Virus record (IMG/VR): IMGVR_UViG_3300038557_000032
Span: 1-47,236 of that record
DNA: 47,236 bases
Direction: 5' to 3' (one strand)
From: a virus
In this document: piece by piece, positions 26,255 through 47,236 of the stretch
Position numbering within the stretch: position 1 is the first letter of the stretch
How the letters are laid out: every line of letters starts with the position of its first letter
Notes under the pieces: model-generated
What the model was told of the DNA's origin: nothing
What the model saw: only the letters and a program-made list of their open reading frames with translations
The model's database searches: none
Position numbers and translations under genes: made by a program

Positions 26255-28016
26255 AACGGGCTCTCCCATGGGGGTTGCGGGGCGCGTCGTCGGGCGCGTC
26301 GGGCACGTTGAAGAGCTCGATATCGAGATAGAAGTTGCGGCCGCCGATCTCGGATTTCGTGAAGCGGTCCGACGCGATGTCGCCGACCTTGCGCATCGAG
26401 CGCGGCGTCTTACCCTCGGCGTGAGACCAGTTGCAATAGGCATCGTAAAGCTGCTGGCCGCCGACGCGCCCGCCCGGCTTCTCCCGCACGCACAGACGCA
26501 GGAACACACCGATCGGGTCGTTGGCGTCGGCATAGTTGCCGGTGTCCTTGCGGACGCTGTCCGCGATGAACAGCCTCTCGCCATTGGCGAGCCAGTCGAG
26601 CACACCCTCGACCAGCCAGGATAGAATGCCCGGCGCCTCCTCCCGAACGAACTCGGCGACGATATCCTCGAATTCGCGCCGCCGCTCCTCGGGGATCGTC
26701 TGGTCCCAATGGACGAGCAGCAGGCGGCGCACGATGCCGAAGTCGGAGCCATCGAGCGTCGGCTTTTTGTTGCCCGACATATGGGCCTTCGCCGTGTTCT
26801 GGAATTCGATATAGCCCTTGAACAGGGCGCGGGCGGTGATCCCTTCGCCGCCGGTCAGGCGCTTGACCAGGTCGTCCTGGAGCGGCGCGTCGCCCTTCAC
26901 CTCGAGGATGCGGACGAAGCGCTTGAACAGTAGGCGGATGATGTCGGGCGAGGCGGAGCCCGCGCCCCTGTCGCCCTGGCCCACGATCGATTCTCGTGGC
27001 AGGCCGACGGCGAGCGCCTCGCCGATCACGCGGAACACCACCTCCAAAAAAACCGACTTGCCATTGGCGCCGGCGCCGAAGTGGAACATGACATATTGCA
27101 GCGGCACGCCGGTAAGGCCGAGCCCGGTGAACATCTGCACCGTCCGGCGCTTGTCGGCATCGGGCAGCATCTCGGCGACGAAGGCGCGCCACCTGTCAGC
27201 CTTGGCATCGATCCCCTGCCAGAGCGTCGGGATGAAGGCCGTGAGCCGGTCCATCGGATCATGCCCGCCATGCTCGATCACGCTCGGTCGCTTCAGTGGC
27301 GCGGCGGGGTCGCTCTCCTCGTCCTCGACCATGGCGAAGGACAGGGTCGCGTTCGGCGTCGCCAGCTTCATCCGGTCGGGGTTGAAGCTGGTATGCGGCA
27401 GTCGCGCCCTTGCATCGGCGAAGGCGAACATCGATTCGACGCGCCCGGCATTCTTCGAGGTCACCGCGTGGTTCAGCCGCCGCGCCACCCGCTTGCCCAG
27501 CGCGTCGCGGGCGCGGTTGGCCTTCTTCACCAGCGCCTTCTGCGGCTTGGTCAGATGCTCGGCATCCGGATCCTCGCCCAAATCTTCTGCCGCCTTGATC
27601 GCGCGCGCCTCCTGCGGCGCATGGCCGAAATAGGCGGTTTCGAGCGCGATCCGGCCGCCCAGGCGGGAAGCGAGCGTCTGCGCCAACGCTGGGCCGTTCG
27701 GCACGTCCCAATGCGTGCCGGCCCAGACGACGCGGTCGCCGCCCGAGACTCCGGCGGCCGCGATCACGGCATAGTCCCGGCCGAAATGGCGCAGGAAGCG
27801 CTCGGCATTGTCGGTATCGGAGGCGTCGAGCGCCGCGCAGCCCTCGACGATGTCCATGTCGACGCTTTCGACGCCGAGATCGCTCGGCCTGTCGCCGTCA
27901 TCCTCGATCTCCGCGGCGGGGATCGCAGGTGCAGGACGAGGCCGAGACGGGGTTGCGGGGCCGGCGAAGGCGCCCTCGACCATATCGGCGATGCGCTGAT
28001 GCGGGTCGTCGGTCAT
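26244..28016 (-). CDS. D5/P4-type primase-helicase (DNA replication)
   Basis: A 590-residue protein. Walker A GAGANGKS (314-321) sits after a D5_N-like region (RWRAFVAEMLPDADKRRTVQMFTG). SF3 helicase features follow: a Walker B-like FVRILEVKGD, then NTAKAHMSGNKKPTLDGSDFGIVRRLLLVHWD, the hallmark sensor region of P4/D5 primases. The N-terminal 200 residues are divergent and include a short GGDRVVWAGTHWDVPNG segment as in phage/plasmid primases. It should unwind DNA at the origin. Its stop abuts the GGCGGGG repeats. ATGA overlap with the methyltransferase stop fixes the start at 28016. Confidence 0.85.
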   Translation of the reverse strand: MTDDPHQRIADMVEGAFAGPATPSRPRPAPAIPAAEIEDDGDRPSDLGVESVDMDIVEGCAALDASDTDNAERFLRHFGRDYAVIAAAGVSGGDRVVWAGTHWDVPNGPALAQTLASRLGGRIALETAYFGHAPQEARAIKAAEDLGEDPDAEHLTKPQKALVKKANRARDALGKRVARRLNHAVTSKNAGRVESMFAFADARARLPHTSFNPDRMKLATPNATLSFAMVEDEESDPAAPLKRPSVIEHGGHDPMDRLTAFIPTLWQGIDAKADRWRAFVAEMLPDADKRRTVQMFTGLGLTGVPLQYVMFHFGAGANGKSVFLEVVFRVIGEALAVGLPRESIVGQGDRGAGSASPDIIRLLFKRFVRILEVKGDAPLQDDLVKRLTGGEGITARALFKGYIEFQNTAKAHMSGNKKPTLDGSDFGIVRRLLLVHWDQTIPEERRREFEDIVAEFVREEAPGILSWLVEGVLDWLANGERLFIADSVRKDTGNYADANDPIGVFLRLCVREKPGGRVGGQQLYDAYCNWSHAEGKTPRSMRKVGDIASDRFTKSEIGGRNFYLDIELFNVPDAPDDAPRNPHGRARYGD

Positions 28017-29653
28017 GCTGCGCGCTCGGCCGAGAAGAACTGGATGCGCTCGGCGAGCCAACGCATGACGGTCACCGCCATGGAGTTGCCATAGCACTTG
28101 TATTGCGGCCCGTCGGGGCAGAGCTCAGCCGGCTTCCCGCGCCACGGGATGCGGGTCCAGCCATCAGGGAAACCCTGCAGGCGCGCGCATTCATCGACGA
28201 TCAGTCGCCGGACAGCCCAGCCATGAGCGATAGCGACCTGCCCGCCGGCATTCGGATGGCTCTCGCCATGCCCCATCGCGCGCAGGGTCGGCGCGACATC
28301 GTCCGCCGCATCGGCGCCGTGATCCTTGCAGGAGAATGCGATGGCAGGCCCGGGCACGCCTGTATCCAGCGGGCCGGTCAGATCGCCGGAGACGAGAACG
28401 TCCGATTGACGCGGATCGAAAGCGATCGCGAGCCCTGCGCCATGTCCTCGACCGGCGGAGGCCTGGAGCGTCGGCGCTATCCCGATGCTGGCGTTGACGG
28501 AGGTATCCTTCGAGGAGAAGGCGATCAGCGCTTCGGTGCCGCAACCGGCGTCGCCGCCCTCGGCGCGCAGGCAAGGCAGACCGTCGCCATAATCCGAGAG
28601 GCCCCGGAGGGCGACCGGGACGAGCGGGATGCCACGACCGGTACCATCCTCGCTCGCGTCGAAGCCCTCTCCGCGCAGGGTGTGCGCGATGAGATAGGTC
28701 GCGGCCGTCTCAGCGCCCATGCCGGGCTGGCGCTCGCCACCGGTCGAATTCGCACCGGCCGGCAAGGTGCCGGCCACCTCGGCGATGAAGGTCTCGACCT
28801 CGAAATCGATCCGCTGCCCCTTCGCGGTCAGCGTGGCGGCTACGTCGATGGCTCCGGAGCGATTACCCCCCCCCATAGGCTTCTCCGACGAGGGGCACGT
28901 CGTCGTGGCTGTAGCCGCCACGGCTTCGAGCGCCGCCCGCAACTGTGGGGGCAGGCTTTTGCCCCGTTTCTCGGCGCGGCGGAGAATTCCCGCGCAGGCC
29001 TTGGGGCTCAAATAGTACCGCCGCGGGATCTGCCCCCCTCCAAGATCGACGACAACGAACACACGCTCGCGTCGTTGGGCCAGGCCGAAGTATTGAGCGT
29101 CGAGAAGCCGCCAAGCCGCCCGTGCCCCTGGCCCCTCAACCATACCCTCGTCCGGCCACCGTCCGATTCCGGCCGGGAGATCGAGGGGAGCATCTGCCCC
29201 GACAAGCGCTCCCAGGAAACAGCCGAAGGCGTTGTCGGGTGTAGAGAGGACACCGGGGACATTTTCCCAGAGGGCGTTCCGGCATCCATGAGATCGAGCA
29301 AGTTCATGGGCGAGCACCGCGAAGGCGAGAGTGAGATTGCCGCGCGCATCGGCCAGCGAGAGCCGCTTGCCCGCGAAGGAGAAGGCTTGGCAGGGCGTTC
29401 CGCCCACCAGCAGGTCGACGTGACCAAGCCGGGTCCGCAGATCCACATCGTCCAGAAGACGCGTGAAGTCGCCGATGTTGGGCGGCGCATTGCCGGAAAG
29501 AGGCTCGTCCGGCATGTTCGAACCGAAGCGCTGCGCCAGCACGGCCGATGCGAACTTGTCGATCTCGCTAAAAGCGGCCGGCGCGAAACCGAGTCCCTGC
29601 GTCGCCACAGAGAACGCCTCGATCCCCGAGCAGATGGAGAGGTAGCGGATCAC
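28013..29653 (-). CDS. DNA (cytosine-5) methyltransferase
   Basis: A 546-residue protein with C5-MTase motifs: SICSGIEAFS (I, ~6-15), PCQ with catalytic Cys88 in GGTPCQAFSFAG (IV), ENVPG (VI, 130-134), QRRERVF (VIII, 193-199) and a C-terminal YKCYGNSMAV (X). Between motifs VIII and IX lies a long variable region (about 230-460) with repeated IAFSSKD / IAFSCKD and VAPTLRAM/IAPTLQAS segments, probably the target-recognition domain. It methylates cytosines, likely protecting phage DNA from host restriction. A run of eight G residues interrupts the coding strand near the middle. ATGA-coupled to the helicase. Confidence 0.92.
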   Translation of the reverse strand: MIRYLSICSGIEAFSVATQGLGFAPAAFSEIDKFASAVLAQRFGSNMPDEPLSGNAPPNIGDFTRLLDDVDLRTRLGHVDLLVGGTPCQAFSFAGKRLSLADARGNLTLAFAVLAHELARSHGCRNALWENVPGVLSTPDNAFGCFLGALVGADAPLDLPAGIGRWPDEGMVEGPGARAAWRLLDAQYFGLAQRRERVFVVVDLGGGQIPRRYYLSPKACAGILRRAEKRGKSLPPQLRAALEAVAATATTTCPSSEKPMGGGNRSGAIDVAATLTAKGQRIDFEVETFIAEVAGTLPAGANSTGGERQPGMGAETAATYLIAHTLRGEGFDASEDGTGRGIPLVPVALRGLSDYGDGLPCLRAEGGDAGCGTEALIAFSSKDTSVNASIGIAPTLQASAGRGHGAGLAIAFDPRQSDVLVSGDLTGPLDTGVPGPAIAFSCKDHGADAADDVAPTLRAMGHGESHPNAGGQVAIAHGWAVRRLIVDECARLQGFPDGWTRIPWRGKPAELCPDGPQYKCYGNSMAVTVMRWLAERIQFFSAERAA

Positions 29654-29656
29654 CCC

Positions 29657-32365
29657 TCACTCCGCCGCTTCGAGCGCCGGAGCGGTCGCGCTCTCGGCAT
29701 CCAGGAGATCGAACAGGCTCGGGATCGCGACCCGCTCTTCCGCTGCGGCGCAGTGGAAGGCGCCGTCCATGAAATAGCCGGGGTTCAGCTCGACGCCGAG
29801 GCCGAAACGCCCCTGCAGGATCGCGCGATAGGGCACGGTCATCAGCCCGCCGAAGGGATCGAACACGGTCTCGCCCGGCATCGACATCTGCGCGATGACC
29901 CGATCGACGATGTCGAACTGCAGCGGGCAGAGATGCATCTCCTTGCCCTTGGCATGCTGCGCCCCGTTCAGCGTCCGCATCCGCGTCACATCGCTCCAGA
30001 CGTTCTGGTCGGGCGAGTGCGGCGGCAGCAGCATGAAGGTCGGCGGCAGGCGCCCGCGCGTCTCCAGCGCCTCGGCGATGGCGACGTGGTACTCGAAATC
30101 GTAGACGGTGGAGAGGTTGAAGCCCTTCCACATCTTGTAGATCGTCGAGGCCGGCACATTGTGCAGGTCTTCGGCCTTGAGCGAGCGGTTCCCGGCCGAT
30201 CGCAGATAGCCATGGGCGTCGATCTGCCAGCGGGCACGGCTATAGCCGTCCGGGTTGATCCAGTCCGAGGCCGGCTTCAGGTTGATCGCGCCATCGTCGG
30301 AATAGGTCAGCTCGTCGTCGGGCTCCAGGTCGCCGGTCTGACCGAACCACTTCTTCGCCTTCACCACCCTCGTATCGGCGTAGCTAACGGAACGGTCCGT
30401 CTGCGGCTTGCGGAAGATCAACAGGTATTCCGGCAGGCCGGCGCCCATCTTGGAGCCGTCCTTGCACTGTTCCGACCAGCCCAGCCGATAGGTCTGGTTG
30501 TTCTCCCGCACCACGTCGGTGGTCACGGTCTTCATGCCGAGGAAGGCGAAGCCGTGCTTGCGGAAGTGCTGGATCGCGTCGCAATGGAAGGTCGAGACGG
30601 TCTGAAAGCCGAGCCCGTTGATCCCGCCGGGGATGATCCGGTCCTTGACGTGGATGACGCAGTTGCGGCCGGGCTGCAGCACGCGCAGCAGCTGCGGCGT
30701 CAGGAAGTCCATCTGCGCCCAGAAATGCGGGTCGCTGTCGGTGTGGCCGAAGTCGTTATAGCTCGGCGTGTATTCGTATTGCGTCGAGAATGGGATCGAG
30801 GTGACGATCAGCCCGACCGAGTTTTCGGCCAGGGCGGCGCTCTCCAGCACCGTGTCGTTGTTGACGATGCGGTGGTTGGCACCCCGGATTTCGACGCGCT
30901 CGACACCGATCGAGCGTGAGAGAGAGGCCGCGAGCGCCTGCTCGTTCAGGCCGTATTCGCGGATGATCTGGCTCATCTGGTCGACCATGTGCTTGTGCTG
31001 CTCCCACTTGGTCAGAAGCGTGCGCAGCACCGCCTGCTCGCCTTCGGACGCGATGATGTGGATTTCGACCGGCCGCTCCTGCTGGAAGCGCTGGATGCGG
31101 TGAATGGCCTGGATGAAATCGTTGAACTTGAAGCCGATGCCGAGGAACACGGCCCGGTGGCAGTGGCGCTGGAAGTTGCAGCCGGAGCCGGCGATGACGG
31201 GCTTGGCCGCCAGATACTGGAAGGCGCCGTCCGAGAAGCCAATGATCGTCTCCTCGCGGGCGCCGAGCTCCTGCGTGCCGTAGACCGAGCGGACGGAGGG
31301 CACCGCGGCCTCGATCGCCCGGCGCTCGTCCTCCAGATCGTGCCAGATGATGAAGTGCTCGGCCGGCGCGGCCGAGAGGATCTCGGAGAGCTTGGCAATG
31401 CGAAGAGGCAGGCTCGCCCGCTTCTCGCGGCTAGCGCCGACGACGCCGAGCGCGTCCCTGGCGATCAGGATGCCCTGGCCGTCGCGCTCGGTCTCGCGGG
31501 TCGCGAGGTCGCTGGCGACGGTATGGTGATGGACGGTCAGCGGCGGCAGGTCATAGCCGGCATCGTCGCAGCCGAGATCGGAGGGCCGCTGCACGAACAG
31601 CGCCCAGCTCGACACCCATAGCCAGAACTCCCGCTCCTTGTGCGGATGGATGGTGAGCTGGTCGGCTTTCTCGCTGTTGCGCTTGAAGAAGCGCGTCTTC
31701 GCCTCGCCGACATCCATCACCTCGAGGAATGCCGAATAGGCCAGCAGCTCGATGAACTCGTTGGGCGAAGGCGTCGCCGTCGCCACCAGCTTGAAGCGGA
31801 CGCCGTCGAACAGGCGCATGAACTCGCGGAAGGTCTTCGAGCCGCCGAAGCCGCGCAGGCAGGACGCCTCGTCGAGCGAGGCTGCACCGAAGGCCCGCGG
31901 ATCGAGCTTGCCGTCGCGCACCGTCTCGTAATTGGTCAGGTAGATGCCGCGCTCGGCGGCTTCCGCCACGCTGCGGATGAATACGAGCACCGGCACGCGC
32001 TCCGGCCGATCCTTGATCCAGAGCGCATGCGCCGCCTTCACCTCGGCCGAGATCTTGTCATGGTCCGCCGTGGCCAGCGTCCGCGCGTCGCGCATGAACT
32101 CCTGACGCACCCCGAGCGGGATCACGATCAGGGCAGATTCTCCGAGCTTCTCGACCAGCAGCCGGCAGAACTCGATCTGCATGAAGGTCTTGCCGAGGCC
32201 GAAGGCCGCGAAGAGCCCGGCCCGGCCGAGACGCAGCGCCCAGCGCACCATCAGGCGTTGATGCGGCAGCAGGATCGGGTTGATCTCCGCGTCCGCGACC
32301 TCGATGCCGGCAGCGACGGCGATGCAGGCCTTGGCCTTGAGGAAGGCGAGATACGCGTCGCTCAT
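29657..32365 (-). CDS. SNF2-like helicase fused to a beta-class DNA methyltransferase
   Basis: A 902-residue two-domain protein. Residues 30-480 form a superfamily 2 helicase: Walker A AFGLGKTF (54-61), a DEAS box (165-168), ATATPSPN (195-202) and motif VI QAIHRIQR (419-426). Residues ~490-870 are an amino-methyltransferase with motif IV TSIPFS (522-527) before motif I FDPFGG (835-840) and a following GVELNPGYF; that IV-before-I order is class beta. The methylated base (N6-adenine or N4-cytosine) cannot be read. Motif IV departs from the usual (D/S)PP(Y/F): the second proline is kept but the first is replaced by Ile. A DNA-translocating methylase is the likely role. Confidence 0.85.
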   Translation of the reverse strand: MSDAYLAFLKAKACIAVAAGIEVADAEINPILLPHQRLMVRWALRLGRAGLFAAFGLGKTFMQIEFCRLLVEKLGESALIVIPLGVRQEFMRDARTLATADHDKISAEVKAAHALWIKDRPERVPVLVFIRSVAEAAERGIYLTNYETVRDGKLDPRAFGAASLDEASCLRGFGGSKTFREFMRLFDGVRFKLVATATPSPNEFIELLAYSAFLEVMDVGEAKTRFFKRNSEKADQLTIHPHKEREFWLWVSSWALFVQRPSDLGCDDAGYDLPPLTVHHHTVASDLATRETERDGQGILIARDALGVVGASREKRASLPLRIAKLSEILSAAPAEHFIIWHDLEDERRAIEAAVPSVRSVYGTQELGAREETIIGFSDGAFQYLAAKPVIAGSGCNFQRHCHRAVFLGIGFKFNDFIQAIHRIQRFQQERPVEIHIIASEGEQAVLRTLLTKWEQHKHMVDQMSQIIREYGLNEQALAASLSRSIGVERVEIRGANHRIVNNDTVLESAALAENSVGLIVTSIPFSTQYEYTPSYNDFGHTDSDPHFWAQMDFLTPQLLRVLQPGRNCVIHVKDRIIPGGINGLGFQTVSTFHCDAIQHFRKHGFAFLGMKTVTTDVVRENNQTYRLGWSEQCKDGSKMGAGLPEYLLIFRKPQTDRSVSYADTRVVKAKKWFGQTGDLEPDDELTYSDDGAINLKPASDWINPDGYSRARWQIDAHGYLRSAGNRSLKAEDLHNVPASTIYKMWKGFNLSTVYDFEYHVAIAEALETRGRLPPTFMLLPPHSPDQNVWSDVTRMRTLNGAQHAKGKEMHLCPLQFDIVDRVIAQMSMPGETVFDPFGGLMTVPYRAILQGRFGLGVELNPGYFMDGAFHCAAAEERVAIPSLFDLLDAESATAPALEAAE

Positions 32366-35108: not shown

Positions 35109-35816
35109 ATGAACACCGAAATCCTCAGATGGATCGAGCGGGGCCTTGAGAAGCCCGGCAAATCGCGAAAGGGGCTTGCAGCGGCCCTTGGACGCTTCCC
35201 CTCCGCCGCCACGAAGCTTCTGAAGGGCGACCGGGCGATTAAGACGGACGAGCTTGCGAAGATTGCGGCGTATCTGGAAGAGCCACCGCCGGCTCTCCCA
35301 GGGCTGGAATTCAAGCCGCTACCTGAGATTGAGGCCGCGAAAGAAGGGCGCCTGTTACCCATCACGGTTGTTGGCCCCGTGCAGGCCGGGGCGTTTATAC
35401 CGATCGACGAGTTCGACCAGAGCGAGCCCGAGATCTTTTACGAGCCAGCAGATCCCGACTTTCCGCGCGCAAAGCGAACAGCCTACGATGTCATGGGCGA
35501 TTCGATGAACAGGCTCGAACCAACGCCCATCTTGCCCGGATCGCGGGTGATTGGCGTTGATTATGACGACATCGGCATACCACTGCGCGACAAGATGGTC
35601 GTCGTCGTGCAGCAGGAGCGCGATGGGGGACATTTGCGAGAATGGTCGGTCAAGCAGATCGAGCTACAGGACGAGCAGATCATCTTCCACCCACGGTCGA
35701 GCAACCCCCGGCATAAGCCAATAATCGTTCCACGCGACCTACGCGCGGATGATGGGCGCGAGGTAAAGATCCTCGCGCTGGTTCGGGAGATCAAGAACAG
35801 AGTTCCAGTGTTCTGA
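35109..35816 (+). CDS. CI/LexA-type phage repressor (S24 peptidase)
   Basis: A 235-residue protein. Residues 15-50 form an HTH domain (KSRKGLAAALGRFPSAATKLLKG). The C-terminal half is a LexA-like peptidase: Ala103-Gly104 cleavage site in VQAGAF, nucleophile Ser142 in MGDSMNR and Lys172 in LRDKMVV. RecA-stimulated self-cleavage would therefore induce the prophage during DNA damage. Start at 35109 (MNTEIL) is used; an in-frame ATG at 35085 adds eight residues and cannot be excluded. It faces cro across the operator region, and its 3' end overlaps the zinc-ribbon gene. Confidence 0.88.
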   Translation: MNTEILRWIERGLEKPGKSRKGLAAALGRFPSAATKLLKGDRAIKTDELAKIAAYLEEPPPALPGLEFKPLPEIEAAKEGRLLPITVVGPVQAGAFIPIDEFDQSEPEIFYEPADPDFPRAKRTAYDVMGDSMNRLEPTPILPGSRVIGVDYDDIGIPLRDKMVVVVQQERDGGHLREWSVKQIELQDEQIIFHPRSSNPRHKPIIVPRDLRADDGREVKILALVREIKNRVPVF

Positions 35817-36650: not shown

Positions 36651-37682
36651 ATGGTCCGCAAAACGAAGCAGCCCGCGGCCCCCACCATCACCTCGATCAA
36701 GGGCTTCGGAGCGGACATGGTCTGCTCTGGACCCGGCTATCGGTTCCAGTACGAGATCGGCAAGACCTATACCCATGACGGGACGGTTAAGGCCTGCAAA
36801 AGCGGCTTCCACGCCTATCCGGTCGAAGAGCATCCGCTCAACGTCTTCAACAGCTACGCCCCGGCCGGTAGCCGGTTCTTCGAGGTCGACCAATCTGGGG
36901 AGACCAGCAGGGAGAATGCAAAGCTTGCCTCGGCGGTCATCACCGTCAAGTTCGAGCTCTCCATCTCCGATCTGGTCAAACGCGCCTTCGACTATGTTTG
37001 GTCACGCTGCACGCTGACCGAAGGCTCCAGCGCGACCGGGTACCGGGGCGCGGCGAGCGCGACCGGGTACCGGGGCGCGGCGAGCGCGACCGGGGACCAG
37101 GGCGCGGCGAGCGCGACCGGGGACCAGGGCGCGGCGAGCGCGACCGGGGACCAGGGCGCGGCGAGCGCGACCGGGGACCAGGGCGCGGCGAGCGCGACCG
37201 GGTACCGGGGCGCGGCGAGCGCGACCGGGGACCAGGGCGCGGCGAGCGCGACCGGGGACCAGGGCGCGGCGAGCGCGACCGGGTACCGGGGCGCGGCGAG
37301 CGCGACCGGGTACCGGGGCGCGGCGAGCGCGACCGGGTACCGGGGCGCGGCGAGCGCGACCGGGTACCGGGGCGCGGCGAGCGCGACCGGGGACTGGGGC
37401 GCGGCGAGCGCGACCGGGGACTGGGGCGCGGCGAGCGCGACCGGGGACTGGGGCGCGGCGAGCGCGACCGGGCGGGGGTGCGGGGCGTACGCCACGGGCT
37501 TCGATGGCCGCGTCAGCGGCAACGATGGGTCGCCACTCCATCTCGACGAGAGGCTCTTCCATCCCGGTCATGACGACCACGGCAAGGTCCTCGCGGTCTG
37601 GGCCGGCATCGTCGGTCAAGGCGGTATCAAACCGGGCACCTTCTACACGCTGAAGGGCGGCCAGCCGGTGGAGGCCGACTGA
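36651..37682 (+). CDS. DUF7666-type protein with 16 nonapeptide repeats
   Basis: A 343-residue protein. The N-terminal ~125 residues (IKGFGADMVCSGPGYRFQYEIGKTYTHDG, CKSGFHAY, HPLNVFNSYAPAGSRFFEVDQSG) match the pattern of the phage domain now called DUF7666. Residues 127-270 are 16 copies of S-A-T-G-x-x-G-A-A, where xx is YR, DQ or DW, plus one degenerate copy. The repeats may fold as a beta-solenoid or collagen-like trimer. The C-terminal 60 residues (RVSGNDGSPLHLDERLF, GKVLAVWAGIVGQGG) are non-repetitive. Function is unknown. The gene sits in the rightward early operon, not with the fibre genes. Confidence 0.75.
   Translation: MVRKTKQPAAPTITSIKGFGADMVCSGPGYRFQYEIGKTYTHDGTVKACKSGFHAYPVEEHPLNVFNSYAPAGSRFFEVDQSGETSRENAKLASAVITVKFELSISDLVKRAFDYVWSRCTLTEGSSATGYRGAASATGYRGAASATGDQGAASATGDQGAASATGDQGAASATGDQGAASATGYRGAASATGDQGAASATGDQGAASATGYRGAASATGYRGAASATGYRGAASATGYRGAASATGDWGAASATGDWGAASATGDWGAASATGRGCGAYATGFDGRVSGNDGSPLHLDERLFHPGHDDHGKVLAVWAGIVGQGGIKPGTFYTLKGGQPVEAD
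37029..37487 (+). repeat. 27-bp tandem repeat array (16 copies plus one degenerate)
   Basis: Units of exactly 27 bp start with AGCGCGACCGGG and end GGGGCGCGGCG; the variable centre is TACCGG, GACCAG or GACTGG. The copy order is YR YR DQ DQ DQ DQ YR DQ DQ YR YR YR YR DW DW DW, then SATGRGCGA (37461-37487). Near-identity between units outside the variable codons indicates recent expansion by slippage or recombination. Confidence 0.95.
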
Positions 37683-37807
37683 TGCGGGTGGAACCGGCTC
37701 CGCGCTATGGCCTGATACTCGTCGTCTGGGCCATCATTGCAGGCGCGGTCGTGACGGCATGCTCGCCCGTCATCCTCGCGCTCTGCCTCATCTGGGGCGC
37801 GCGCTGA
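37682..37807 (+). CDS. 41-residue membrane protein
   Basis: Overlaps the previous stop (TGATG at 37680-37684) and the next start (TGATG at 37805-37809). The product has one long hydrophobic helix (YGLILVVWAIIAGAVVTACS) and a short second stretch (PVILALCLIWGAR). It could be an inner-membrane protein. It has no recognised family. Coupled junctions on both sides support the gene. Confidence 0.5.
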   Translation: MRVEPAPRYGLILVVWAIIAGAVVTACSPVILALCLIWGAR

Positions 37808-38511
37808 TGACGTGGCTGCAGATCTGCTCCAACGGCCCCATCGACGGCTCCTTCAATCTGATCCATCCGGATGCGCGCAGCGTCGATTTCGACGTGGCCG
37901 TGCCGGAGGGGCTGGCGCGGACCTCGCGCTACACCGGTCACGTCAGGGCCGGCTCCTATTCGGTGGCGCAGCACAGCGTGCTGGGCGCCGATGCGATCTA
38001 TCGCAAGACCGGCGACCGGACGGCCGCCGCTGCCTTTCTGCTGCACGATGCGCATGAGCACGTCCTCGGCGACAAGGCGACGCCGATCGCCGAGGCCGAG
38101 GTCGAGACGGCCGAAAGCCTGGTGCCCGGCGCCGGCCGGATCGTGCGCGAGATGCAGAAGCTGATGAAGCGCCGCATCGACCTCGCGATCTATGCTGCCG
38201 CCGGTCTCGGCAATGACGGCTGCCCCGAGCGCTACCGCCGCATCGTGCATGAATACGACATCGGCATGCTCGCGACCGAGCGCCGCCATCTGCTCGGCCG
38301 CCCGCCGATGCCCTGGCATCCGAGTGTCGAGGCCGCGCAGCCGGTCCGCCTCATCGGCAAGCTCCGCGTCTGGCCCTGGCCGGAGGCTGCCGACGAATTC
38401 CGCGCCCGGCTGAAGGCCTATCTGCCCGACCTGTCGGCCTTCGCTCCCTTCCGCCCGCAACCGAAGCCCGGCCCGCGCTCCGCCGCGCGCCGCATCCCCG
38501 TGGAGGCCTGA
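37807..38511 (+). CDS. HD-domain phosphohydrolase (YfbR-like nucleotidase)
   Basis: A 234-residue protein with HD-type metal motifs: SVAQHSV (His56), then FLLHDAHEH with the HD pair H80-D81, and a further charged helix containing EIV/IDLAIY-like residues. The layout (a GHVRAGSYSVAQHS start, LLHDAHE) matches phage HD hydrolases of the YfbR/dNMP phosphohydrolase type. It may adjust nucleotide pools during replication. The C-terminal 60 residues are proline-rich. The substrate is not determined. Confidence 0.75.
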   Translation: MTWLQICSNGPIDGSFNLIHPDARSVDFDVAVPEGLARTSRYTGHVRAGSYSVAQHSVLGADAIYRKTGDRTAAAAFLLHDAHEHVLGDKATPIAEAEVETAESLVPGAGRIVREMQKLMKRRIDLAIYAAAGLGNDGCPERYRRIVHEYDIGMLATERRHLLGRPPMPWHPSVEAAQPVRLIGKLRVWPWPEAADEFRARLKAYLPDLSAFAPFRPQPKPGPRSAARRIPVEA

Positions 38512-39956: not shown

Positions 39957-41069
39957 ATGAAGATCTCCGTCCAGCGCGACACGCTCGCTCCGGCCCTGGC
40001 CGCGCTCTCGCGCGTGGTCGAGCGCCGCAACACCATCCCCGCCCTCTCCAACATCCTGCTGCGCGCCGAGGGTGGCCGCCTGACGCTGCGCGCGACCGAT
40101 CTCGATATCCAGGCCGAGACGAGCCTGGCCTGCGAGGTTGCGGAGGCGGGCGCCATCACCCTGCCGGCGCATACCCTCTCCGACATCGTCAGGAAGCTCC
40201 CGGCCGAGGCGGCGATCAGCTTCGAGCTCGCCGGCGAGCGCATGGCGCTGCGCGCGGGCCGGTCGCGCTTCACCGTGCAGACCCTGCCGGAATCGGACTT
40301 CCCCGACATCACCATCGGCGAGTTCTCGCACCGCTTCGCCCTGCCGGCGAAGGAGTTCGCCGCGGCGCTCAGTCAGGTCGAGTTTGCGATCTCGACCGAG
40401 GAGACGCGCTACTACCTCAACGGCATCCACATGCACACGATACCGGTCGACGGCGCCACCAGGCTGCGCGCGGTCGCCACGGATGGTCACCGCCTGTCCC
40501 GGCTGGAGCTGCCGACGCCGGAAGGCGCCGAGGGCATGCCGGGCGTCATCGTGCCGCGCAAGACGGTGGCCGAGCTCGGCAAAATCGCCAAGGACCACGA
40601 CGGCGAGATCGTGCTCGAGCTGTCGGCCACGAAGATCCGTGCCACGGCCGGCAGCACCACCCTGACATCGAAGCTGATCGACGGCACCTTTCCCGATTAT
40701 CAGCGCGTCATCCCGGCCGGCAACGACAAGCTCGTCACCCTCGACGCCGAGCCCTTCAAGCAGGCGATCGACCGCGTCGCCACCATCTCCAGCGAGCGCG
40801 GCCGCGCCGTGAAGCTCTCGCTCTCCGATACTGGCCTCACGCTCTCGGTCAGCAACCCCGACAGCGGCACGGCCACCGAGGAGATCGAGCCCGACTATGA
40901 CGGCCAGCCGATCGAGATCGGCTTCAACGCCCGCTACCTGCTCGACATCGTCGGCGTGCTCGGCGGCGACAGCATCCAGATGAAGCTCGCCGAGCCGGGC
41001 GCCCCGGCCATCTTCCAACGGCGCGAAGGGGACAGCCTTCTCGTCGTGCTCATGCCGATGAGGGTCTGA
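39957..41069 (+). CDS. dnaN: DNA polymerase III beta subunit (sliding clamp)
   Basis: A 370-residue protein with the full three-domain clamp length. Diagnostic segments include the start MKISVQRDTLAPALAALSRV, RRNTIPALSNILLRA, LRATDLDIQ, TLPESDFPDI, AVATDGHRLSRLELP and the end LLVVLMPMRV. The clamp encircles DNA and tethers polymerase. A phage-borne clamp of bacterial type implies the phage directs host polymerase III, or a pirated clamp-binding factor, to its own template. The start at 39957 is chosen over an upstream in-frame ATG because it matches the usual clamp N-terminus. Confidence 0.93.
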   Translation: MKISVQRDTLAPALAALSRVVERRNTIPALSNILLRAEGGRLTLRATDLDIQAETSLACEVAEAGAITLPAHTLSDIVRKLPAEAAISFELAGERMALRAGRSRFTVQTLPESDFPDITIGEFSHRFALPAKEFAAALSQVEFAISTEETRYYLNGIHMHTIPVDGATRLRAVATDGHRLSRLELPTPEGAEGMPGVIVPRKTVAELGKIAKDHDGEIVLELSATKIRATAGSTTLTSKLIDGTFPDYQRVIPAGNDKLVTLDAEPFKQAIDRVATISSERGRAVKLSLSDTGLTLSVSNPDSGTATEEIEPDYDGQPIEIGFNARYLLDIVGVLGGDSIQMKLAEPGAPAIFQRREGDSLLVVLMPMRV

Positions 41070-45873: not shown

Positions 45874-46128
45874 ATGGCGGCGGCGGAAGCGATCACCCCG
45901 AGGCTGATGACGCGCGCCCAGGCGGCCGGCTATTGCGCCATGACGCCATCGCGCTTCTCGCAGCTCGTCAAGGCCGGCACATTGCCCGCCGCCGTCCCCG
46001 GCACCACGCGCTGGGACCGCATGGCAATCGACGCCGCTCTGGACAAATTCGCCGGGCTCAAATCTCCTGAGCCGAGCGGCTCCGCTCTCGATCGATGGTT
46101 GAGCAAGAATGGTTCGCGTGCGGCTTAA
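45874..46128 (+). CDS. Excisionase-like HTH protein
   Basis: An 84-residue protein with a MerR/Xis-like HTH: RLMTRAQAAGYCAMTPSRFS, QLVKAGTLPAAVPGTTRWDR. The short winged HTH is like phage excisionases and helps direct the integrase to excise. The start at 45874 is used because it follows the ssb stop by 1 nt; an in-frame start at 45853 would overlap ssb. It overlaps the integrase start by 20 nt. The assignment rests on location and HTH pattern. Confidence 0.6.
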   Translation: MAAAEAITPRLMTRAQAAGYCAMTPSRFSQLVKAGTLPAAVPGTTRWDRMAIDAALDKFAGLKSPEPSGSALDRWLSKNGSRAA

Positions 46129-47236
46129 GGGGGTTGCCAGCGCCAGGCGCAAGCTGCCGGACGGCACCTTCCAGACCTATTACTATGCCTGGCGCGGCGG
46201 CCCACGCCTGACAGGCGAGCCGGGCTCGGCCGAGTTCGTCGATTCCTACAACAAGGCCGTCGCCGGCCGCAGCCTCGCAGCGGCGAAGTCCGGCACGGTC
46301 GCCGCGCTGATCCGCCTCTACACGGCGTCGAGCGACTATCCGAAGGCGGCATCCTCGCAAAAGGCCTATCGCACCTATCTGCGGCTGATCGAGGATCGCT
46401 TCGGCGACATGGAGATGGCAGCCCTCGAGGATCGCCGCGTGCGCGGGATATTCAAGGACTGGCGCGACGAGATGAAGGAGACGCCGCGCAAGGCCGATTA
46501 TGCCTGGAGCGTGCTCGTCAAGCTGCTCAACTATGCCAAGGACCGCGGCGACCTGTCGGTCAACCCTTGCGACCGCGGCGGGCGCCTCTCTTCACCGGAT
46601 CGGACCGACAATGTCTGGACCGATGCGCATATCGAGACCTTCCTCACTGTGGCGCCATTCGAGGTCGCGATCGTCTTCTGGGCCGCGATCTGGACGGCGC
46701 AGCGACAGAACGATCTGCTGAAGCTGACCCGGTCGAACATCAAGGACGGCATCCTGCGGCTGAAGCAGAGCAAGACCGGCGCGCGGGTCGCCATGCCGGT
46801 TCCGACACCGCTCGCCGAAGGGTTGGCGCGCAACCCTGCGCACGGCCTCGTCCTATTCAACAACAGCGACGGGCTGCCCTGGACCAGCGACGGCTTCCGC
46901 ACCTCGTTCGGCAAGGCCTGCGAGAAGGCCGGCGTCACGGACCTTACCTTCCACGATCTGCGCGGCACCTTCTCGAATCGCGCGGCCCTCGCCGGCTGCA
47001 CGCCGAGCGAGATCGCCAGTGTCACCGGTCACCAAATCGAGGGGTCAGGCACACTCGGCGCCAGCTATTTGCAGCGCAACTTGGAGTTGGCGACGACCTG
47101 CATCCGGCGCGTCGAGGAGAACGAAGCCGGGACAATTTTGCAAAACGGGCTGCAAAAAGTGCAAAACCGGCCTTCAAAGAAGCCCGGTTCCAAGATCAAC
47201 ATCAGGGGAAGAAAGAGTGCCGTATCAAGCACTTAA
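46109..47236 (+). CDS. Tyrosine-type phage integrase
   Basis: A 375-residue site-specific recombinase. Catalytic residues fit the tyrosine family: Arg199 (TAQRQNDLLKL), His282/Arg285 (FHDLRGTF), His308 (TGHQ) and the nucleophile Tyr320 (GASYLQRN); Lys222 is the candidate beta-hairpin Lys. The N-terminal ~60 residues (RRKLPDGTFQTYYYAWRGG) resemble an arm-type DNA-binding domain. It integrates and, with an excisionase, excises the phage. The gene ends at the final base of the window, so attP should be nearby or just outside. Confidence 0.92.
   Translation: MVRVRLKGVASARRKLPDGTFQTYYYAWRGGPRLTGEPGSAEFVDSYNKAVAGRSLAAAKSGTVAALIRLYTASSDYPKAASSQKAYRTYLRLIEDRFGDMEMAALEDRRVRGIFKDWRDEMKETPRKADYAWSVLVKLLNYAKDRGDLSVNPCDRGGRLSSPDRTDNVWTDAHIETFLTVAPFEVAIVFWAAIWTAQRQNDLLKLTRSNIKDGILRLKQSKTGARVAMPVPTPLAEGLARNPAHGLVLFNNSDGLPWTSDGFRTSFGKACEKAGVTDLTFHDLRGTFSNRAALAGCTPSEIASVTGHQIEGSGTLGASYLQRNLELATTCIRRVEENEAGTILQNGLQKVQNRPSKKPGSKINIRGRKSAVSST
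47136..47167 (+). repeat. Short GCAAAA repeats in the integrase 3' end
   Basis: TTTTGCAAAA (perfect 10-bp palindrome, 47136-47145), followed by GCAAAAA (47152) and GCAAAAC (47161), gives three GCAAAA copies within 32 bp inside the coding end of the integrase. Such clusters can be arm-type integrase sites. Coding content (TILQNGLQKVQNR) may explain it by chance. Confidence 0.35.

Follow-up and report, generated by a model that had tools for sequence, protein, structure and literature searches.

The repeat gene in the early region of the window (the whole 47,236-nt stretch of viral DNA analysed here) carries a tandem array in which units are shuffled, the backbone is under concerted evolution, and a few positions per unit show an excess of nonsynonymous change. 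By its sequence matches, it is an ordinary member of a large, known and uncharacterised phage family (DUF7666 / phrog_4433). We suggest that its product is an early modular recognition rod, probably for counter-defence or inter-phage conflict, an explanation which, taken as a whole, we hold to be about evenly balanced between right and wrong. The combination of selection and shuffling is new here; the selection signal, like the breadth of the family, was absent from the initial annotation of this DNA.

The organization of the gene and its surroundings is presented in Table 1. The open reading frame is intact. The sixteen exact 27-bp units of three types, differing in two codons, that the initial annotation described were all confirmed in the window sequence, with SATGYRGAA present seven times, SATGDQGAA six times and SATGDWGAA three times. 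Every base is equal in the 16 units outside codons 5 and 6, and synonymous change is entirely absent. Codon 5 is TAC or GAC, and codon 6 is CGG, CAG or TGG; together they specify the di-residue designated xx. Analysis with TRF gave 16.4 copies with 97% matches and a score of 776, while the runner-up array in the window scores 60. The block arrangement of unit types, also described initially, holds for this array, as its order (YR2 DQ4 YR1 DQ2 YR4 DW3) forms 6 runs, a number below that of most shuffles (p = 0.005). It is a feature of the window array and not a general one, since blocky order was observed in only 2 of 31 arrays tested. The head, already named as DUF7666, matches the Pfam profile (PF24703, E 5.7e-25) with 88.1 bits against a cut-off of 27, over profile positions 2-94 of 95, and the phrog_4433 match spans aa 3-211 in its best stretch. 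In the full-length family alignment (34 members), the C-terminal domain shows the consensus ..GNALFLVERDDDY.I..V.AGIVG.DGIKPDTWY.L..G..VEV.

Table 1. Modules of the repeat gene and selected genes of the rightward block in the window.
Feature	Position	Strand	Support
Transcriptional repressor, upstream, marks immunity region	35109..35816	+	phrog_4, E 2e-15
Whole repeat gene, 343 aa: DUF7666 head, 9-residue array, C-terminal cap	36651..37682	+	phrog_4433, E 3.9e-96
DUF7666 head, aa 14-110, alpha/beta	36690..36980	+	PF24703, E 5.7e-25; AF2 pLDDT ~90-98
Sixteen exact 27-bp units S-A-T-G-x-x-G-A-A, aa 127-270; xx = YR/DQ/DW	37029..37460	+	
Degenerate 17th unit SATGRGCGA	37461..37487	+	
Conserved C-terminal domain, ~65 aa, probable solenoid cap	37488..37679	+	consensus of relatives; AF2 strands
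Deoxyribonucleoside 5'-monophosphate phosphatase, downstream early gene	37759..38511	+	phrog_318, E 1.2e-31
DNA polymerase processivity factor (sliding clamp), downstream early gene	39957..41069	+	phrog_947, E 4.7e-101
Integrase, end of same rightward gene block	46109..47236	+	phrog_1, E 1.1e-36

Relatives of the gene are numerous. At E 1e-5 they were detected in 215 phage and 56 plasmid records, some of which match via the collagen-like array alone. A further 15 bacterial contigs and 79 IMG/VR loci were found partly via repeat motifs, so that their motif content is biased and their silent sites are not. A profile of DUF7666 only, free of repeat bias, recovered 11 of 395 genomes in the family of genome G002, and most of the genes found in this way have the same 9-residue array. 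Hosts of the relatives are Pseudomonas, Salmonella, Acinetobacter, cyanobacteria and gut bacteria. The annotations that these genes already bear vary widely and are doubtful (c-type lectin precursor, ADP-ribosyltransferase, ATPase domain, CRISPR spacers, collagen). The literature searched mentions neither DUF7666 nor the repeat motif by name, in agreement with the earlier statement that a DUF7666 head combined with repeats has no known role. PADLOC gave no match, NCBIfam gave sub-threshold matches only, no DNA similarity of the gene region was detected among phages, and the DNA of the homologue gp53 of phage ES18 had no match in E. coli complete genomes.

Locus L120 (1333..2226, minus strand) encodes a DUF7666-like protein with another repeat tract (AAWAAARDAAWDAA...) replacing the 9-residue array, which suggests a modular head that combines with repeats of more than one kind. 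Some of the records are small, including Salmonella “plasmid” records H73-H90 (5.55-5.87 kb) and phage records OR845271 (6.0 kb) and OR850878 (14.5 kb). Many such small records hold one copy of the repeat gene and may be partial phage assemblies.

Gene order in the window and the context in ES18 confirm the proposed position in an early, non-tail operon. Same-strand genes 3' of the repeat gene also include an SSB gene, while terminase, portal, sheath and baseplate genes are located on the opposite strand at ~8.6-23.7 kb, with sampled tail genes near 8.6-16 kb. In ES18, gp53 follows an N-like antiterminator and precedes cIII/kil. The repeat gene, sited between the repressor and the genes for recombination and integration, is an early gene in the sense of the lambda PL operon, placed apart from tail genes. 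In the phage SEN22 and in a Newport plasmid-phage, the homologue adjoins a superinfection-exclusion gene. Among the 79 loci, in which gene names were assessed by eye, 18 have a repressor-like gene ~1.7 kb 5' of the homologue, in most cases with the same orientation, and YqaJ- or RecT-type genes are found 3' of the homologue in some. The genes around it are of ordinary early types (repressor, Cro, YqaJ-type nuclease, RecT, methyltransferase), and a search for a conserved partner gene disclosed none adjacent in most loci. In the leftward replication block of the window, a DNA methyltransferase gene (28013-29653, minus strand) adjoins a long helicase gene (29657-32365, minus strand), the latter with a partial methyltransferase match (phrog_67).

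The location also bears on the possibility that the gene encodes a collagen-like protein, for example a tail-fibre shaft, which we consider very improbable. The array does match Pfam Collagen (E 2.2e-9) and tail-fibre PHROGs, and its best PDB sequence matches are collagen chains. These matches look compositional, being scattered over many offsets of each chain. Collagen requires Gly at each third residue (G-X-Y), whereas positions 1, 4 and 7 of the unit are S in 557/607, G in 607/607 and G in 605/607 units, and arrays of the SNTGxxSAA type have S, G and S there. In addition, the gene resides in the early region, away from tail genes, and its head is DUF7666. Based on the Gly pattern and the early location, the collagen or tail-fibre reading was rejected.

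Closely related genes differ in the number and order of units. In P. aeruginosa records whose heads share 91-100% and tails 93-100% identity, arrays comprise 8, 13, 16, 21, 27 and 28 units in differing orders; in Salmonella records sharing at least 93% identity in the head, there are 3, 11, 16 and 22 units, and di-residues are partly different. These counts refer to the main array run, as the counter halts at irregular units, and the values of 8 for P7869 (341 aa in total) and 3 for S107 and S135 represent minimum array lengths. Duplicated blocks of 7-10 units exist in several arrays. Plasmid-prophages pHPA0008-2 and pHPA0271-2, identical throughout the fetched 2.5-kb flanks, differ by three bases in the gene, all in one unit and converting DY to YR. 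This switch looks like gene conversion, though it may be a polishing error. Duplication and conversion between variants, accompanied by copy-number change, had been anticipated, and the 3-28 units of relatives, the one-unit switch and the duplicated blocks support this expectation. Arrays are nevertheless not unstable on every time scale, because CP137943 and CP124671 share the same 28-unit array.

Many arrays come from short-read assemblies, in which repeats may be collapsed or mis-polished, as illustrated by Ns in fLi-Aba03. For this reason the comparison of fLi-Aba02 and fLi-Aba03, which differ by 162 bp (six units) between identical flanks, was dropped as proof of copy-number change, the array of the latter being possibly collapsed. 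Frameshifts in or before the array were observed in L101 (fEg-Aba01), L055, L119 and Salmonella phage vB_SemP_Emek (H111, as annotated). Given the unit length of 27 bp, shifted frames stay open across the array, and they may represent either a real phase change or a sequencing error. Given these frameshifted homologues, the gene may be dispensable. In six pairs of loci (L027/L056, L033/L086, L039/L083, L047/L063, L061/L091 and L080/L085), both ends of one IMG/VR contig are situated inside the array. Genomes that are circular or circularly permuted are thus broken at the repeat during assembly, and “complete” phage contigs can be cut there.

Variation within units is concentrated in the di-residue. 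Among 534 units from 62 distinct arrays, heterozygosity reaches 0.59 at the first base of codon 5 and 0.40 at the second base of codon 6, compared with 0.01-0.06 at the third position of codons 2-4 and 7-9; in the variable codons themselves, the third position shows low variation (0.09-0.10). In 39 arrays, after removal of edge units and using a counting method rather than a codon-model likelihood test, pN at the xx codons is 0.311 and pS 0.084, while pS in the other seven codons is 0.031. Thus, pN at xx is ~10x the backbone pS and 3.7x the pS at the same codons. No synonymous difference whatever was found in 21 of the 39 arrays. Fourfold silent backbone sites differ by 0.032 within arrays and by 0.522 between arrays, indicating that the backbone is homogenised in each array while the di-residue stays diverse. 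Nearly all arrays retain 2-7 di-residue types, mostly 3-4, drawn from a narrow alphabet common across hosts (D/Y/N/T, then Q/R/W/Y). Like types are spelled with different codons in different arrays. The same amino-acid alphabet written in different codons, together with the lack of a reverse transcriptase in the eight records searched, points to selection on protein and not on DNA.

Two other origins of this pattern were considered. Targeted mutagenesis, for example by a diversity-generating retroelement, would agree with variation limited to two adjacent codons within a constant backbone. It is nonetheless extremely improbable and was rejected: reverse transcriptase (PF00078) occurs in 0 of 8 records (the window and seven others carrying the gene), third bases of the variable codons barely vary, and new orders arise through movement of whole units. 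The array could also be a spacer or rod in which length alone matters, the variable codons belonging to a tolerant loop under neutral drift, with units made and lost by unequal crossing-over. Residues in turns often tolerate change, copy number is highly variable in near-identical genes, and homogeneity of the silent backbone is the expected outcome of concerted evolution. Drift, however, predicts similar synonymous and nonsynonymous rates, contrary to the pN and pS values obtained at xx, and a narrow alphabet common across hosts is not expected from it either. We therefore regard neutral drift of a rod as unlikely.

The AF2 model, constructed with 34 family members, predicts the array as a beta-solenoid (pLDDT ~80-85). 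In this model every unit contributes a strand (A-A-S-A-T) and a turn (G-x-x-G), the latter holding the di-residue. In the relative L043, which has strongly diverged repeats, AF2 likewise predicts strands with 9-residue periodicity, from an alignment that includes perfect arrays. Among 458 inner units, hydrophobic residues (V, I, F) predominate in the substitutions at positions 8, 1 and 3, and small or polar ones at position 2, a pattern resting on few changes, many of them from L043 and L001. Positions 4 and 9 are invariant across units, but the search itself was restricted to units with G and A, respectively, at these positions. Alternation of inward and outward substitutions is expected of a real strand and is independent of AF2, and in this way supports the solenoid. 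A search of the PDB with the model revealed no significant match and no solved structure alike, and the BFVD fold matches include a phage pentapeptide protein.

AF2 is known to fold even random perfect repeats into confident beta-solenoids (PMC11795689). Of the solenoid with variable side-chain rows put forward in the initial annotation, the model and the hydrophobic alternation are in favour, and it stays a prediction in view of this bias. The predicted solenoid may be an artefact, with the repeats representing a disordered low-complexity tract or a self-assembling one (aggregating or phase-separating). The documented bias for perfect repeats (PMC11795689) and the lack of a resembling PDB structure are compatible with such a tract. 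On the other hand, the diverged array of L043 retains the 9-residue strand pattern, substitutions alternate in a strand-like manner, and the conserved strand positions (S, A, T) are without charged residues. Overall, a disordered or self-assembling tract appears quite unlikely. The array is best described as a predicted beta-solenoid rod with the di-residue exposed in each turn.

According to the explanation that we prefer, a recognition rod, the gene would encode an early, probably cytoplasmic protein of a temperate phage, composed of a fixed DUF7666 head, a solenoid rod and a fixed cap. Each unit would display two exposed variable residues in its turn, making the rod a modular binding surface. 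Recombination within the array would duplicate, lose and convert units, keeping the backbone identical and letting new di-residues spread, while selection for changed binding would maintain several di-residue types. By analogy with fungal WD40 repeats, the array most likely serves to bind a partner that changes. This partner would most likely be a protein of the host or of a rival phage that varies and is encountered early in infection, making counter-defence or superinfection conflict the most likely function. Early expression and a neighbourhood of immunity and exclusion genes lead to a similar expectation, counter-defence or inter-phage conflict, and on these grounds we infer a role in counter-defence. 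As a more far-reaching and tentative proposal, in our judgement rather doubtful, this widespread class of phage early genes would be a modular recognition system equivalent, in phages, to TALE or HIC repeats, in which the di-residue code of a beta-solenoid is continually reshuffled to track a variable host-defence or rival-phage target. If so, specificity would be readable, and perhaps predictable, from the order of di-residues.

Many temperate phages carry such an early gene, with a pattern as in proteins that continually change their binding target. If the array is a recognition surface, it represents an unstudied arms-race gene across phages of many hosts, and natural variants differing by single units make it directly testable. 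Concerted evolution coupled with diversifying selection, known from fungal allorecognition, is observed here in a phage gene. In practical terms, the arrays seem to break short-read assemblies and to attract misleading annotations.

The head offers one weak functional lead at the domain level, its similarity to RIIB. A BFVD Foldseek search disclosed several RIIB-type proteins (E 0.01-0.03), and in two T4-like phages it is rIIB that contains the best match of the Pfam HMM (E 0.003 and 0.007), although no match was found in T4 itself. Alignment of the head with the RIIB C-terminal domain by hhalign gave P 0.004, and with the head HMM RIIB could not be told apart from shuffled sequences. In T4 rIIB (L122:1466-2404, minus strand), the C-terminal ~100 aa contain a motif, C..GLHVC...SRVV.V, that resembles the DUF7666 core. 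A distant common origin of DUF7666 and the C-terminal domain of RIIB is possible, though weakly indicated, and is offered as a functional lead with no claim of membership; RIIAB counter RexAB (PMC11879866).

Compared with known systems, the window protein is closest to other DUF7666/phrog_4433 proteins such as ES18 gp53, with which it shares the head, the 9-residue array, the cap and the early-operon position; only unit number, order and di-residue types differ, and nothing fundamental does. RIIB bears a weak likeness to the DUF7666 fold and its C..G[FL]H.C motif in its C-terminal domain, but it has an N-terminal HTH-like region and lacks such repeats. Pentapeptide-repeat and other beta-solenoid proteins stack short repeats into a rod, as predicted here, whereas the unit in the window protein has 9 residues, with a fixed backbone and a variable di-residue, and no sequence relation was found. 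TALE repeats are likewise tandem, near-identical units differing in two adjacent loop-exposed residues. They are not homologous, being 34-aa helical units whose repeat-variable di-residue lies in a loop and which bind DNA bases. The nearest parallel in evolutionary pattern is found in the WD40 repeats of fungal NLRs (het-d, het-e, hnwd), which evolve in concert, vary greatly in copy number and show positive diversifying selection at few sites of each repeat (PMC1805685, PMC2873952), a pattern that serves non-self recognition in het-d/het-e (PMC1805685). As in the phage array, these HIC WD40 repeats are near-identical, variable in number and selected at few positions, while the fold and the organism are different, the fungal proteins are NLR receptors, and recognition, demonstrated for them, is here suggested by the analogy.
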